From contig VBIQ01000007.1 of the NCBI GenBank assembly GCA_005880985.1, forward strand, positions 124,001 through 188,000: 64,000 nt of DNA. Direction: 5' to 3'. The notes below the pieces were generated by a model that saw only the letters and a list, made by a program, of their open reading frames with translations, was not told the DNA's origin and searched no databases. A program made the position numbers and the translations under genes. Within the stretch, counting starts at the first letter, position 1; every line of letters starts with the position of its first letter. Positions 2,099 through 24,373 of this stretch are shown one piece after another. The stretch comes from Chloroflexota bacterium (GTDB lineage Bacteria; Chloroflexota; Dormibacteria; Aeolococcales; Aeolococcaceae).

Positions 2099-3157
2099 TT
2101 GCCCAGCGAACGAGAGCGCGCTCTCTCCACCGCCCTCGGCCAGATCGAACGCTCCTACGGCAAGGGTGCCGTGATGCGGCTGGGCGATGCCAGCGCAGAG
2201 CGCAATGTCGAGATCATCCCCACCGGGGCGCTGACCCTCGACATCGCCCTCGGGGTGGGCGGGGTTCCTCGCGGCCGCATCATCGAGGTCTACGGGCCGG
2301 AGTCCTCGGGCAAGACCACCCTGGCCCTGCATGTGATCGCCGAGGCGCAGCGGCGCGGCGGGGTGGCCGCCTTCATCGACGCCGAGCACGCCCTCGACCC
2401 CCAGTACGCCGCCCGCATCGGGGTGAACAGCGAGGAGTTGCTCATCTCCCAGCCCGACACCGGCGAGCAGGCCCTGGAGATCGTCGAGGTGCTGGTGCGC
2501 AGCGGCGCGGTCGACGTCATCGTCATCGACTCCGTGGCCGCGCTGGTGCCCAAGGCCGAGATCGACGGCGAGATGGGCGACACCCACGTCGGCCTCCAGG
2601 CCCGCCTGATGTCGCAGGCGATGCGCAAGCTGACCGCCGCCATCAGCCGCTCCAACACCTCGGTCATCTTCATCAACCAGCTCCGCGAGAAGGTCGGCGT
2701 GATGTTCGGCAACCCCGAGGTGACCACCGGGGGCCGTGCCCTGAAGTTCTATGCCTCGGTGCGCATGGACATCCGCCGCATCGAGTCCATCAAGCAGGGC
2801 CTCGACGTCATCGGCAGCCGAGTCAAGGTCAAGGTTGTCAAGAACAAGGTGGCCCCGCCGTTCAGGTCCGCCGAGTTCGACATCCTCTACAACGAGGGCA
2901 TCTCGTACTCGGGCAGCGTCCTCGACATGGCCATCGAGTCGCGGGTGGTGGAGAAGAGCGGCGCCTGGTTCAGCTATGGCGAGATGCGACTGGGCCAGGG
3001 TCGCGAGAACGTCCGGGACTTTCTCAAGCAGAGCCCCGAGCTGCTCGAGGAGATCGCCGCCAAGGTCCGTGCCCAGCACACGCCCGAGGCCAGGGGGTCG
3101 GCCAACGGAGAGGTGCCGGCAGTGGCGGAGGTCACCGTCGCCGGCCAGCCGGTGTAG
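2099..3157 (+). CDS. recA: Recombinase RecA
   Basis: RecA forms filaments on single-stranded DNA, catalyses strand exchange and triggers LexA self-cleavage. I chose the TTG at 2099, which gives 352 residues, the normal family length, with GGAGA ten bases upstream. A TTG at 2012 would add 29 unusual residues. Visible features are Walker [10 protein letters not shown] at residues 66-74, the MAW stretch ([11 protein letters not shown]), Walker B ([14 protein letters not shown]), the L1/L2 DNA-binding loops around [15 protein letters not shown] and [17 protein letters not shown], and a C-terminal domain ending in a short acidic/Pro-rich tail. No intein is seen. recX follows 42 bases later. A LexA-type box lies on the likely promoter. 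Confidence 0.97.
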
Positions 3158-16183: not shown

Positions 16184-16246
16184 GAACAAACGTTTGCATT
16201 TCTGCCGGAGCCGTGTTAGAGTGGCCCGGTCCAACGCCGGAGGTGG
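16184..16246 (+). promoter_or_regulatory. lexA promoter with LexA box and strong ribosome binding site
   Basis: GAACAAACGTTT (16184-16195) fits the GAAC-N4-GTTY LexA box. It overlaps a -35-like TTTGCA (16193-16198), which lies exactly 17 bases upstream of a -10-like TTAGAG (16216-16221). GGAGGTGG (16239-16246) is a strong ribosome binding site eight bases before the ATG. The layout predicts autorepression of lexA. Confidence 0.68.
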
Positions 16247-16254
16247 ACCCTGTC

Positions 16255-16881
16255 ATGCCGGAAGCCCTGAACCCGCGGCAGCGGGAGATTTTCGAGTACC
16301 TGCGCGAACAGACGCGCACCCGCGCCTATCCGCCGACGGTTCGCGAGATCGGTCAAGCGGTCGGCCTGAGCTCGTCGTCGACGGTGCAGAATCACCTCAA
16401 CGCCCTCGAGCAGAAGGGGTACATCAAGCGCGACCCCACCAAGTCGCGAACCGTCGAGGTGGTGGGTGTCGAACGCACCGGCGCGCGCACCATGTCGATC
16501 CCGGTGATCGGTCGCGTCGCCGCCGGCTCGCCGGTGCTGGCCGAGCAGAACATCGAAGATCACCTCAACCTCGGCCCCGAGATCGCCGGCGCCGACGACG
16601 CCTTCGCCCTGCACGTGCGCGGCGACAGCATGATCGAGGCGGGCATCTTCGACGGCGACCTGGTGGTGGTGCGCCCTCAGCGCGAGGCACCCAATGGATC
16701 GATCGTGGTGGCTCGCCTGGAGAGCGAGATCACCGGTGAGTCAGAGGTGACGGTGAAGCGGCTCTACCGCGAGCCGGGGCGGGTCCGCCTGCAGCCCCAG
16801 AACGCGAGCATGGAGCCGATCTACGCCCGCGACGTCCACCTCGAGGGCGTGGTGGTGGCCGTCATCCGCGTGCTTCGCTGA
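16255..16881 (+). CDS. lexA: SOS repressor LexA
   Basis: LexA represses DNA-damage genes and is inactivated by RecA-stimulated self-cleavage. The 208-residue protein starts at ATG 16255 behind a strong ribosome binding site. The N-terminal winged helix (LNPRQREIFEYLREQT, PTVREIGQAVGLSSSSTVQN, HLNALEQKGYIKRDP) spans about residues 1-65. The cleavage-site Ala-Gly is in IGRVAAGSPVLAEQ near residue 90. The catalytic serine lies in HVRGDSMIEAGIFDGD near 125 and the catalytic lysine in VTVKRLYRE near 165. All catalytic elements are present, so the protein should be fully regulatable. Its 3' end overlaps the convergent acyl-CoA ligase gene by 20 bases. Confidence 0.96.
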   Translation: MPEALNPRQREIFEYLREQTRTRAYPPTVREIGQAVGLSSSSTVQNHLNALEQKGYIKRDPTKSRTVEVVGVERTGARTMSIPVIGRVAAGSPVLAEQNIEDHLNLGPEIAGADDAFALHVRGDSMIEAGIFDGDLVVVRPQREAPNGSIVVARLESEITGESEVTVKRLYREPGRVRLQPQNASMEPIYARDVHLEGVVVAVIRVLR

Positions 16882-20076: not shown

Positions 20077-20391
20077 TCAGGGCGGCGGCAGGACCAGCGA
20101 CTCTCCCGGGGTCAGCCCACCTGCGCCGAGGTGGTTGGCGGTGACGATGTCATCGACCCGGGCGCGCAGGTCGCCGCCGCCGCCATAGTGGACCGCGGCG
20201 ATCGTCCAGAGAGTGTCGCCGGGGCGCACCTGGACCTGCTCGAACCCGTGGCCGTCGCCGCCGTAGACCGCGTTGGCGAGGAGGACCAGCAGGGCGGCGA
20301 CGACCACGAGGGCGGCAAGCAGGCGGCGCCGACGGCGACGCCACGGACGGGGGCGGGGGATGCGGTAGGGGAGGTAGAGGTCGGCGATCAT
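20077..20391 (-). CDS. Small LysM membrane protein, likely SOS-induced division inhibitor (YneA type)
   Basis: The 104-residue protein has a short basic cytoplasmic N-terminus (IPRPRPWRRRRRR), one membrane helix (LLAALVVVAALLVLLANAVY, about residues 24-43) and a C-terminal LysM domain (VQVRPGDTLWTIAAVHYGGG ... IVTANHLGAGGLTPGESLVL). LysM binds peptidoglycan. The same size and order occur in YneA of Bacillus, an SOS-induced suppressor of cell division. Two LexA-type boxes precede the gene, one between -35 and -10 and one between the promoter and the ATG. I chose ATG 20391, with GGAAG upstream; a frame from 20421 would contain the second box. The function is inferred from architecture and control, not from close sequence identity. 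Confidence 0.82.
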   Translation of the reverse strand: MIADLYLPYRIPRPRPWRRRRRRLLAALVVVAALLVLLANAVYGGDGHGFEQVQVRPGDTLWTIAAVHYGGGGDLRARVDDIVTANHLGAGGLTPGESLVLPPP

Positions 20392-20403
20392 CGCTTCACT
20401 TCC

Positions 20404-20452
20404 AAACGTCTGTTCGAGCACCGACGCTACACGAACAGGCGTTCGGAGTCAA
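20404..20452 (-). promoter_or_regulatory. SOS promoter of the LysM gene with two LexA boxes
   Basis: On the minus strand TTGACT (20452-20447) and TAGCGT (20429-20424) are 17 bases apart. A perfect palindromic-core box, GAACGCCTGTTC (20444-20433), fills the spacer. A second box, GAACAGACGTTT (20415-20404), lies between the promoter and the start codon and differs at one base from the box before lexA. A roadblock-plus-occlusion arrangement is implied. Confidence 0.75.
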
Positions 20453-20483: not shown

Positions 20484-20948
20484 GTGGCGCCGGTCACCAG
20501 CATCCGTGTCCGGGTCTCCGCCTGCCTGTGGGAGGAGGACCGGATCCTGCTGGTCGAGCACCACAAGGCGGGGCGCAACTACTGGCTGCTGCCGGGCGGC
20601 GGGGTCGAGGTGGGGGAGACCCTGGCCGAGGCGGTGCGCCGCGAAGTGCAGGAGGAGACCGGCTACCAGGCCGAGGTCGGGCGCCTGGTCATCGTCTGCG
20701 AGGCGATCGAGCCCCAGGGCCGCCACCTGCTGGAGCTGGTCTTCGCGGCCCGGGGCGCAGGCGGGAGCCTGGCCGTCGGCGGTGACGCCCGCCTGGTCGA
20801 CGCCGCCTGGCACCCCGTCGACAGCCTCCCCGGGCTCGACACCCGGCCGGACATCGGCCGCGAGGTCCTCGAGTGCTGGCGGGAGGGCTTCGCCGGCCCC
20901 GTCCGCGTGCTCGGCAACGTCTGGCGCACTGCCCCGGCGAACGACTAA
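20484..20948 (+). CDS. Nudix hydrolase
   Basis: This 154-residue protein has the Nudix box G-x5-E-x7-REUxEE-x-G: the stretch GGGVEVGETLAEAVRREVQEETGY lies at about residues 37-60. Nudix enzymes cleave nucleoside diphosphates linked to another group; the substrate here is unknown. The N-terminus SIRVRVSACLWEEDRILLVEH is the usual first strand. GTG 20484 is the start. It is divergent from the SOS-controlled LysM gene, with 92 bases between the two start codons. The LexA boxes could therefore also affect this gene, which would fit a nucleotide-pool cleaning role. That is inference. Its end overlaps the convergent recombinase gene by four bases. Confidence 0.87.
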   Translation: MAPVTSIRVRVSACLWEEDRILLVEHHKAGRNYWLLPGGGVEVGETLAEAVRREVQEETGYQAEVGRLVIVCEAIEPQGRHLLELVFAARGAGGSLAVGGDARLVDAAWHPVDSLPGLDTRPDIGREVLECWREGFAGPVRVLGNVWRTAPAND

Positions 20949-21997
20949 GGCGCCTCGCCCTTGGCGACCTCGCGGAGGTAGGCGCCCAGCCGCTGGTAGG
21001 CGATCCGCTTGCGGCGGTCGGTGATCTCGGTATAGACGCGCAGGGTCTCCAGGGTGGCGTGACCGAGCACCTCCTGGACCAGACGGACATCGCCATCGGT
21101 GGCTTCCAGCAGGGTGGTCGCGGCGGTGTGCCGGGCCACATGGGGGCTGCGCAGGTCGGCGACCAGGCGGAAGAGCTCGGGGTCGGAGGCGAAGCGCCGG
21201 CGCAGCGCCGCCAGGGCGCGGCGGGCGCCGTCGGTGGTCAGCCGGTTGTGGGGGAGGACCCGGCCGCGGGGCACGTCGGCGTGGGCGACGCTGATGAACA
21301 GCGCCGGGCTCTGGTCGGGCCCGCGCGCCCGCAGGTAATCGTCGACCGCGCCCAGCGCCTCCTCGGTGCAGTAGACGGTGCGGTGCTTGCCGCCCTTGCC
21401 CAACACCCGGAACCCCTCGGCACGAACATCGGTGCGGTCGAGGGCGCACGCCTCGGCGATGCGGCAGCCGGTGGCCAGGAGGAAGGACACCAGGGCCCGG
21501 TCGCGGAGGTCGCGCAGGCCCTCGCGGGGCAGGGCACGCAGCAGTCGCGGAACCAACTCGGTCGGCACCGGGTGCGGGTCGCCGACCACATACCGCGGCA
21601 CCACCACCTGGCGACTCAGCTCGGACGCGGTCCAGCCCTCGTCGTAGGCGTAGGCGAGGAAGCGGCGCAGGGCCACCAGGGCGCGGGCCCGGGTGCGCGG
21701 GTGGGGCAGCACCTCGGCCAGCTCGACCTGGTAGCGGCGCAGGCTCTCGCGATCGATGGCCGCCACCGTCAGCGGTCCCGCCGACGAGGCGTCGATGAAG
21801 GCGACGAACTTGGCCAGATCCTGGCGGTACGCCCGCACCGTGCTCGGCGGCCGGTTGCGCTGGATGCGCAGCCAGTCGAGGAACTGCTGCACCTGCTGCG
21901 GCAGCGGGTCGTTCGGTCCCGGGACGTGGGTGCTCCAGGCCGGCACCCGGGAACGCCGGGGAGCGGTCGGGCGGCGAGAGGTCGAACGGGCGGGCAT
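20945..21997 (-). CDS. Tyrosine recombinase, XerC/XerD type
   Basis: The 350-residue phage-integrase-family recombinase has an N-terminal SAM-like core-binding domain (QQVQQFLDWLRIQRNRPPSTVRAYRQDLAKF). The catalytic domain carries the first Arg in LLATGCRIAEACALD, Lys in VLGKGGKHRTV, HVARHTAATTLLE for the H-x2-R box, a GH in VLGHATLETLRVYTEI, and the nucleophile Tyr in the last motif. It may act in chromosome dimer resolution (Xer) or belong to an old mobile element; one copy alone does not decide this. An about 45-residue basic, Pro/Ser-rich leader precedes the core-binding domain, so the start may be later. An inverted repeat lies upstream. Confidence 0.87.
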   Translation of the reverse strand: MPARSTSRRPTAPRRSRVPAWSTHVPGPNDPLPQQVQQFLDWLRIQRNRPPSTVRAYRQDLAKFVAFIDASSAGPLTVAAIDRESLRRYQVELAEVLPHPRTRARALVALRRFLAYAYDEGWTASELSRQVVVPRYVVGDPHPVPTELVPRLLRALPREGLRDLRDRALVSFLLATGCRIAEACALDRTDVRAEGFRVLGKGGKHRTVYCTEEALGAVDDYLRARGPDQSPALFISVAHADVPRGRVLPHNRLTTDGARRALAALRRRFASDPELFRLVADLRSPHVARHTAATTLLEATDGDVRLVQEVLGHATLETLRVYTEITDRRKRIAYQRLGAYLREVAKGEAP

Positions 21998-23554: not shown

Positions 23555-24373
23555 TCACGCGCGGCGCCGCAGGCGTGCTCCCGCCGCGACGAGAGCGCCC
23601 ATCAGCATGAGGATGCCGCCGGTGACGGCGTTGTGCGCCAGGCCGCTTCCCGTGCTCGGGGTCTTCACCGCCGAGGCTGCCGCCGACTTGCTGGCCGCCG
23701 CCGCGCCCGACCCGGTGGTCGGCGTGGTGGTCAGCGCCTGGGTGCCGCCGGTCGTCGGCGTGGTGGCCGTTGCCGGCGTCGTGCCGCCGGTGGTCGGCGA
23801 GGTGCCGCCGCTCGGGCTGCCGTTGGCGCTGCCCGACGACTGGGCTGCGCTGTTGGCCGAGTTCGTGGCGCCCGACGTGCCGCCGCTCGTGCTGCCGTTG
23901 GCGCTGCCCGACGACTGGGTGGCGCTGTTGGCCGAGGTGGACGCGCCCTGGGTTGCGCCGCTCGGGCTACCGTTGGCGCTGCCGGCGGACTTGGACGCGC
24001 TGTTGGCCGAGTTGGACGCGCCCTGGGTTGCGCCGCTCGGGCTGCCGTTGGCGCTGCCGGCGGACTTGGACGCGCTGTTGGCCGAGTTGGCCGCCGCCTT
24101 GCTGTCGCCCTGGGCAGCGTGATCGCCGTCGCCGCTGTCGCCGCCAGAGCCTCCGCCATCCCCTTCGCCGCTGCTGGAATCGTGGCTGCGAACCGCTGCC
24201 GAGTTGGCGTCGGACTTGCCATCGTCGGCCAGAACGGCGTGGCTGCGCACCGTGAGAACGAGGGTGGCCGTGACCAGGGCCACGAAGGCGATCGCCAGGC
24301 GCGTCCCGAGGGGTGCCGGCCGCAGTTCCTCCCGGCCCGGCTCTCCTACCCAGCGTGAATTCCTGACTGTCAT
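23555..24373 (-). CDS. Repeat-rich secreted protein with sorting-signal-like C-terminus
   Basis: The 272-residue protein has an N-terminal signal/anchor (RLAIAFVALVTATLVLTVRSHAVLA, residues 25-49) and a Ser/Gly/Asp-rich linker. Four 25-residue repeats follow (residues 96-195), built on NSANSASKSAGSANGSPSG; units 1 and 2 are identical. Next is a Thr/Pro-rich stalk (TPATATTPTTGGTQ), then TPSTG followed by a hydrophobic helix (GGILMLMGALVAAGA) and the basic tail RLRRRA. The end looks like an LPxTG-type cell-wall sorting signal with T for L. A wall-anchored stalk or adhesin-like protein is inferred. Its first codons share a nearly identical 20-base segment with the small ORF at 35,974-36,216. Confidence 0.75.
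   Translation of the reverse strand: MTVRNSRWVGEPGREELRPAPLGTRLAIAFVALVTATLVLTVRSHAVLADDGKSDANSAAVRSHDSSSGEGDGGGSGGDSGDGDHAAQGDSKAAANSANSASKSAGSANGSPSGATQGASNSANSASKSAGSANGSPSGATQGASTSANSATQSSGSANGSTSGGTSGATNSANSAAQSSGSANGSPSGGTSPTTGGTTPATATTPTTGGTQALTTTPTTGSGAAAASKSAAASAVKTPSTGSGLAHNAVTGGILMLMGALVAAGARLRRRA
23789..24088 (-). repeat. Four tandem 75-bp repeats inside the surface-protein gene
   Basis: Four in-frame units of 75 bases encode 25-residue Ser/Ala/Asn/Gly-rich repeats. Units 1 and 2 (nearest the N-terminus) encode the same peptide, while units 3 and 4 have diverged (K to Q, A to S, ATQ to GTS). Such arrays commonly change copy number by slippage or recombination. Confidence 0.85.

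Follow-up and report, generated by a model that had tools for sequence, protein, structure and literature searches.

The window, the whole stretch of 64,000 nucleotides that we analysed, carries on its minus strand a short gene (20077..20391) that starts with ATG and encodes a LysM membrane protein of 104 aa, MIADLYLPYRIPRPRPWRRRRRRLLAALVVVAALLVLLANAVYGGDGHGFEQVQVRPGDTLWTIAAVHYGGGGDLRARVDDIVTANHLGAGGLTPGESLVLPPP, a candidate division inhibitor of the YneA type. The start codon is backed by an M-I-x-D motif kept among relatives. The AlphaFold2 model (mean pLDDT 77.7) predicts a membrane helix at residues 16-43 (20263..20346, minus strand), which begins within an arginine-rich, inside-positive N-terminal stretch (RRRRRR), and a beta-alpha-alpha-beta LysM fold. 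Pfam family PF01476 matches the LysM domain at residues 54-102 (20086..20232, minus strand), including a GDT motif (D59, T60), at E 1.5e-6 and with a score over the curated cut-off. Neither Pfam nor the model shows any domain beyond the helix and the one LysM, and the open reading frame, the Pfam match and the model agree with the 104-residue protein that had been predicted from the letters. In a Foldseek search against the PDB all matches had E > 0.01, and the readable ones were of LysM type and functionally uninformative. LysM membrane proteins have many other roles.

The control region of this gene reads, on the minus strand, TTGACT-CC-GAACGCCTGTTC-GTG-TAGCGT-CGGTGCTC-GAACAGACGTTT-GGAAGTGAAGCG-ATG. 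It contains the two LexA-type boxes of the original prediction and its TTGACT-N17-TAGCGT promoter with a box in the spacer: a -35-like TTGACT (20447..20452), box 1 (GAACGCCTGTTC, 20433..20444), which has perfect palindromic half-sites, and a -10-like TAGCGT (20424..20429). Box 2 (GAACAGACGTTT, 20404..20415) lies downstream of the -10. It had been described as just before the ATG and one base apart from the lexA box; the second part holds, while box and ATG are actually 12 bases apart, and a ribosome-binding site GGAAG (20399..20403, 7 bases 5' of the ATG) lies in between. The lexA box in question is GAACAAACGTTT (16184..16195, plus strand), upstream of the gene for the presumed repressor (16255..16881, plus strand; 208 aa, TIGR00498 221 bits, over the cut-off). 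Divergent from the LysM gene, with a common intergenic region, is a NUDIX hydrolase gene (20484..20948, plus strand; PF00293).

Counting boxes over the whole window gives 4 strand matches against 1.03 expected, a number reached in 7 of 100 shuffles, and this count is weak evidence against chance. A genome-wide count over 3.3 Mb gives 42 distinct GAACNNNNGTTY sites; lexA and the LysM gene account for three of them, within 4.3 kb.

Conservation of the gene and its operator

Of 61 related genomes, spread over four families of the class (f1, the window's own, to f4), 52 gave a match to the LysM gene. Two weak matches among the 52 are other proteins (in G004, and in G053 at the first place), and in G053 a lexA-adjacent fragment of the LysM gene was found in place of its first match. 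We compared the regions before 50 orthologues with 9,070 control stretches of the same loci. The exact GAACNNNNGTTC is present in 70% of the orthologue operators and 0.3% of the controls, and two boxes at a score of at least 7/8 in 84% against 0.15%. Some operators were scored as lacking two boxes as an artefact of start-codon choice; G001 and G015 show both. The pair of boxes and LysM gene that the original prediction had proposed to look for in related genomes is thus present throughout the class, and the finding named there as contrary, homologues devoid of SOS boxes, was looked for and not borne out, 84% of the operators having two boxes. A chance origin of the boxes was considered as well, and the two-box conservation relative to the controls rules it out.

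When the operators are aligned on their boxes, they share one constant layout. Box 1 is nearly always directly preceded by TTGAC, or by TTGCA in part of f2, a TA-rich -10 comes right after box 1, at the same place as in the window, and box 2 follows 22-34 bases downstream (40 in one). These LexA-type boxes form a conserved operator of the LysM gene, to which LexA is predicted to bind.

The close neighbourhood raises the question whether the boxes might instead serve the NUDIX gene, a possible cleaner of the nucleotide pool, with the LysM gene a bystander. About 40 bp separate box 1 from the NUDIX start, and the gene is a conserved divergent neighbour in the window's family, where it is possibly co-regulated with the LysM gene. 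However, the loci read from the other three families showed no NUDIX gene next to the LysM gene, both boxes hold their fixed places before the LysM gene even there, and in all four families box 1 is inside the spacer of the LysM promoter. We consider it very improbable that the NUDIX gene is what the boxes are for, and take them to be the operator of the LysM gene.

The position of box 2 relative to the start codon differs between families. In f1 it is mostly found 23-26 bases 5' of the ATG. Almost every member of f2-f4 has the box overlapping the start codon itself (GAAC-NN-ATGTTC or -ATGTAC), which is why their proteins start with MF or MY, and the -10 in these families sits a few bases ahead of the ATG. 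We tentatively suggest that the transcript is leaderless in f2-f4, that the operator sets residue 2 (F/Y) and that LexA would cover both the transcription start and the start codon.

None of the nine genomes without a LysM match has both an intact lexA and full contig coverage of the place. Five have no lexA match, in two (G002, G011) the contigs end short of the place, and two of one genus (G013, G018) have only an S24-type match over the C-terminal part of LexA. The argument from a joint loss of lexA and the LysM gene is weakened, being confounded by linkage and by incomplete genomes. The genus with the S24-type match only, g14 (G013:C62:7089-7466 and G018:C132; genomes of about 2.0 Mb), lacks the LysM gene, and in G013 no LexA-type boxes were found in the 15 kb around the S24-type match.

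Position relative to lexA

In the window the LysM gene and lexA are convergent and 3.2 kb apart gene to gene; the prediction had separated them by 3.5 kb, correct as to the separation though not as to the exact gap. All 22 same-contig cases in f1 share this convergent arrangement, at 0.8-3.2 kb, with the window the widest. The gene order in f1 is lexA, hypothetical, ctaG, LysM, NUDIX, Xer recombinase, to which the window locus adds an acyl-CoA synthetase-like gene, and the NUDIX gene is kept as a neighbour of the LysM gene within this family only. In f3 and f4 the LysM gene is divergent from lexA, 158-352 bp apart, in all same-contig members, and in f2 it is divergent in every same-contig case, at 0.24-18.5 kb. 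Since f3 and f4 have the two genes head to head and f1 has them convergent, the window gene represents the classic lexA-yneA locus as rearranged within f1. By synteny it is therefore a displaced copy of that locus, and the earlier view that it lies outside the classic lexA-yneA locus does not hold. The Xer gene of the window (20945-21997, minus strand), beside the LysM-NUDIX pair in f1, encodes an XerC/D-like tyrosine recombinase that scores below both the XerC and the XerD cut-offs.

Outside the class, a blind search with the window protein as the single query, run over about 85,000 genomes, led to six confirmed relatives. Four of them are divergent from an adjoining lexA, two in Clostridia (L178, L180) and two in Actinobacteria (L179, L183). 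In both clostridial promoters TTGACA is directly followed by a box, and another lies about 35-40 bp downstream. In the reciprocal search, the clostridial protein finds only the LysM gene in the window genome (42% identity, E 2.3e-12). In a lexA survey of 150 genomes of the phylum, the 22 loci read outside the class had no LysM relative within 1.5 kb. The promoter-box layout is common to Clostridia and this class, while the lexA neighbours sampled elsewhere in the phylum are without the gene, raising the question whether the arrangement is an ancient inheritance or a transfer of a promoter-plus-inhibitor unit.

Comparison with known SOS division inhibitors

The best named family for the window protein is the NCBIfam YneA equivalog NF010723 (E 2.5e-8), although its 33.7 bits lie below the cut-off of 60 bits. 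All 37 orthologues scanned match this model, as do other LysM proteins in control genomes. YneA residues K5, E6, F10, V11 and F14 are needed for midcell localisation, FtsW targeting and toxicity; the match of the window protein begins at model position 9.

The protein resembles Bacillus subtilis YneA (NF010723/PRK14125) in its length of about 100 aa, its N-terminal helix and its outer LysM with a GDT motif, and the genes are alike in being lexA-linked and SOS-controlled, here by prediction. It differs in belonging to another phylum, in the sub-threshold score and in the convergent position that f1 has relative to lexA. In YneA the helix binds TM7 of FtsW and localises the protein, and peptidoglycan binding by the LysM, which requires D46 and T47, is necessary for the block of septal synthesis (PMC13396833). 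D59 and T60 of the window protein correspond by motif to these two residues, so the predicted peptidoglycan-binding residues are kept; some relatives have Q or E for the D and S for the T. The same paper predicts that ChiZ and SosA bind FtsW too (PMC13396833).

ChiZ (Rv2719c) of Mycobacterium tuberculosis likewise combines a helix with a LysM, is encoded beside lexA and is a damage-induced division inhibitor (PMC6851548, PMC3989709). We liken it by description; the actinobacterial sequences compared are the two lexA-linked relatives L179 and L183 only. SosA (Staphylococcus) and DivS (Corynebacterium) are also SOS-induced single-helix division inhibitors encoded beside lexA, but have no LysM domain. 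SulA of Escherichia coli is an SOS division brake, as proposed here, but it inhibits FtsZ and is an unrelated protein.

One alternative is that the protein remodels the wall under SOS control, by hydrolysing peptidoglycan or recruiting hydrolases, with no block of FtsW. Hydrolases often carry LysM domains, wall enzymes make up many of the solved-structure matches, and ChiZ, itself a lexA-linked LysM protein, is a cell-wall hydrolase according to an earlier report as cited in PMC6851548 and PMC3989709. The window protein, however, gives no indication of such an activity, consisting of nothing more than its helix and one LysM. We regard wall remodelling as unlikely and favour the YneA-type reading.

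The orthologous group shares the traits of the YneA/ChiZ type: a single N-terminal helix with one C-terminal LysM, as in the window protein, two predicted LexA-type boxes in the promoter, kept across the class, and a place beside lexA, usually divergent, with f1 close but convergent. The conserved operator, the divergent lexA of the sister families, the NCBIfam match and the cross-phylum relatives that adjoin lexA strongly support the YneA-type, SOS-controlled gene that had been predicted. The window gene is ordinary in kind, and its membership of the YneA-type candidate brakes is well supported. A YneA-type division checkpoint for DNA damage, known from Firmicutes and Actinobacteria, would with this reach an entire, mostly unstudied class in another phylum. 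Our literature search found no paper joining Dormibacter-type names with LexA and SOS, and the class-wide occurrence of such a brake seems to be unstudied in the literature.

Proposed mechanism

For the LysM gene and its protein we infer LexA binding, induction, topology, FtsW contact and division arrest as follows. In undamaged cells LexA on both boxes would block the promoter, in its spacer and just downstream of the -10. DNA damage would lead to RecA-stimulated self-cleavage of LexA, freeing the promoter so that the small LysM protein is made. Its arginine-rich N-terminus would stay inside, the single helix would cross the membrane and the LysM would lie in the wall outside. On the model of Bacillus YneA, the helix may dock at the division site on FtsW, and the LysM may bind new glycan and stall septal wall synthesis until repair is finished. 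We think that this whole reading, a YneA/ChiZ-type SOS checkpoint gene with the mechanism included, is likely to be right. The roughly 40-50 diverged natural variants could be used for mapping the helix residues that pair with FtsW.

The window genome has one SEDS protein (G000:C5, L208:8531-9865), within a division-wall cluster of MraZ, MraW, MraY, MurG and MurC type (assigned by eye), and because of this setting we take it to be FtsW. A second, RodA-like SEDS protein was not found in the window genome and most of its family. Since the genome has one SEDS polymerase, the brake may halt all SEDS-driven wall growth, beyond septation, which we put forward as tentatively as the leaderless transcript. 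The same sole SEDS protein, which might also drive general growth, lends something to a further alternative, an SOS-induced membrane protein that acts on another target (lateral wall growth, chromosome partition or membrane depolarisation) while septation continues. The characterised lexA-linked helix-plus-LysM proteins in the papers cited are, however, division inhibitors, and we find another target improbable, more so than wall remodelling. In several f2 genomes (e.g. G033:C2:4801-5790) a second SEDS match falls inside an open frame about 1,000-1,100 aa long, which may be a SEDS fusion.

Other genes of the presumed LexA regulon and the locus

Exact LexA-type boxes are also found upstream of the dinB operon, yebC and genes for a helix-hairpin-helix protein, a radical-SAM protein and a RecA-like protein. 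The boxes before dinB, yebC and the other genes suggest that LexA of the window genome plausibly uses GAAC-N4-GTTC. Unlike lexA and the dinB operon, recA (window about 2108-3070) has no recognisable box of this form upstream (about 1990-2110). The boxes at G000:C3:108477-108488 and G000:C3:30201-30212 stand 16 and 26 bases before the radical-SAM gene and the small helix-hairpin-helix gene, which are possible new SOS genes. Further along the window, the minus strand encodes a protein of 272 aa (23555-24373) that has no match in Pfam; it has an N-terminal helix, Ala/Ser/Asn-rich repeated units (SANSASKSAGSANGSPSGATQGA) and, at the C-terminus, a hydrophobic stretch with an Arg tail.
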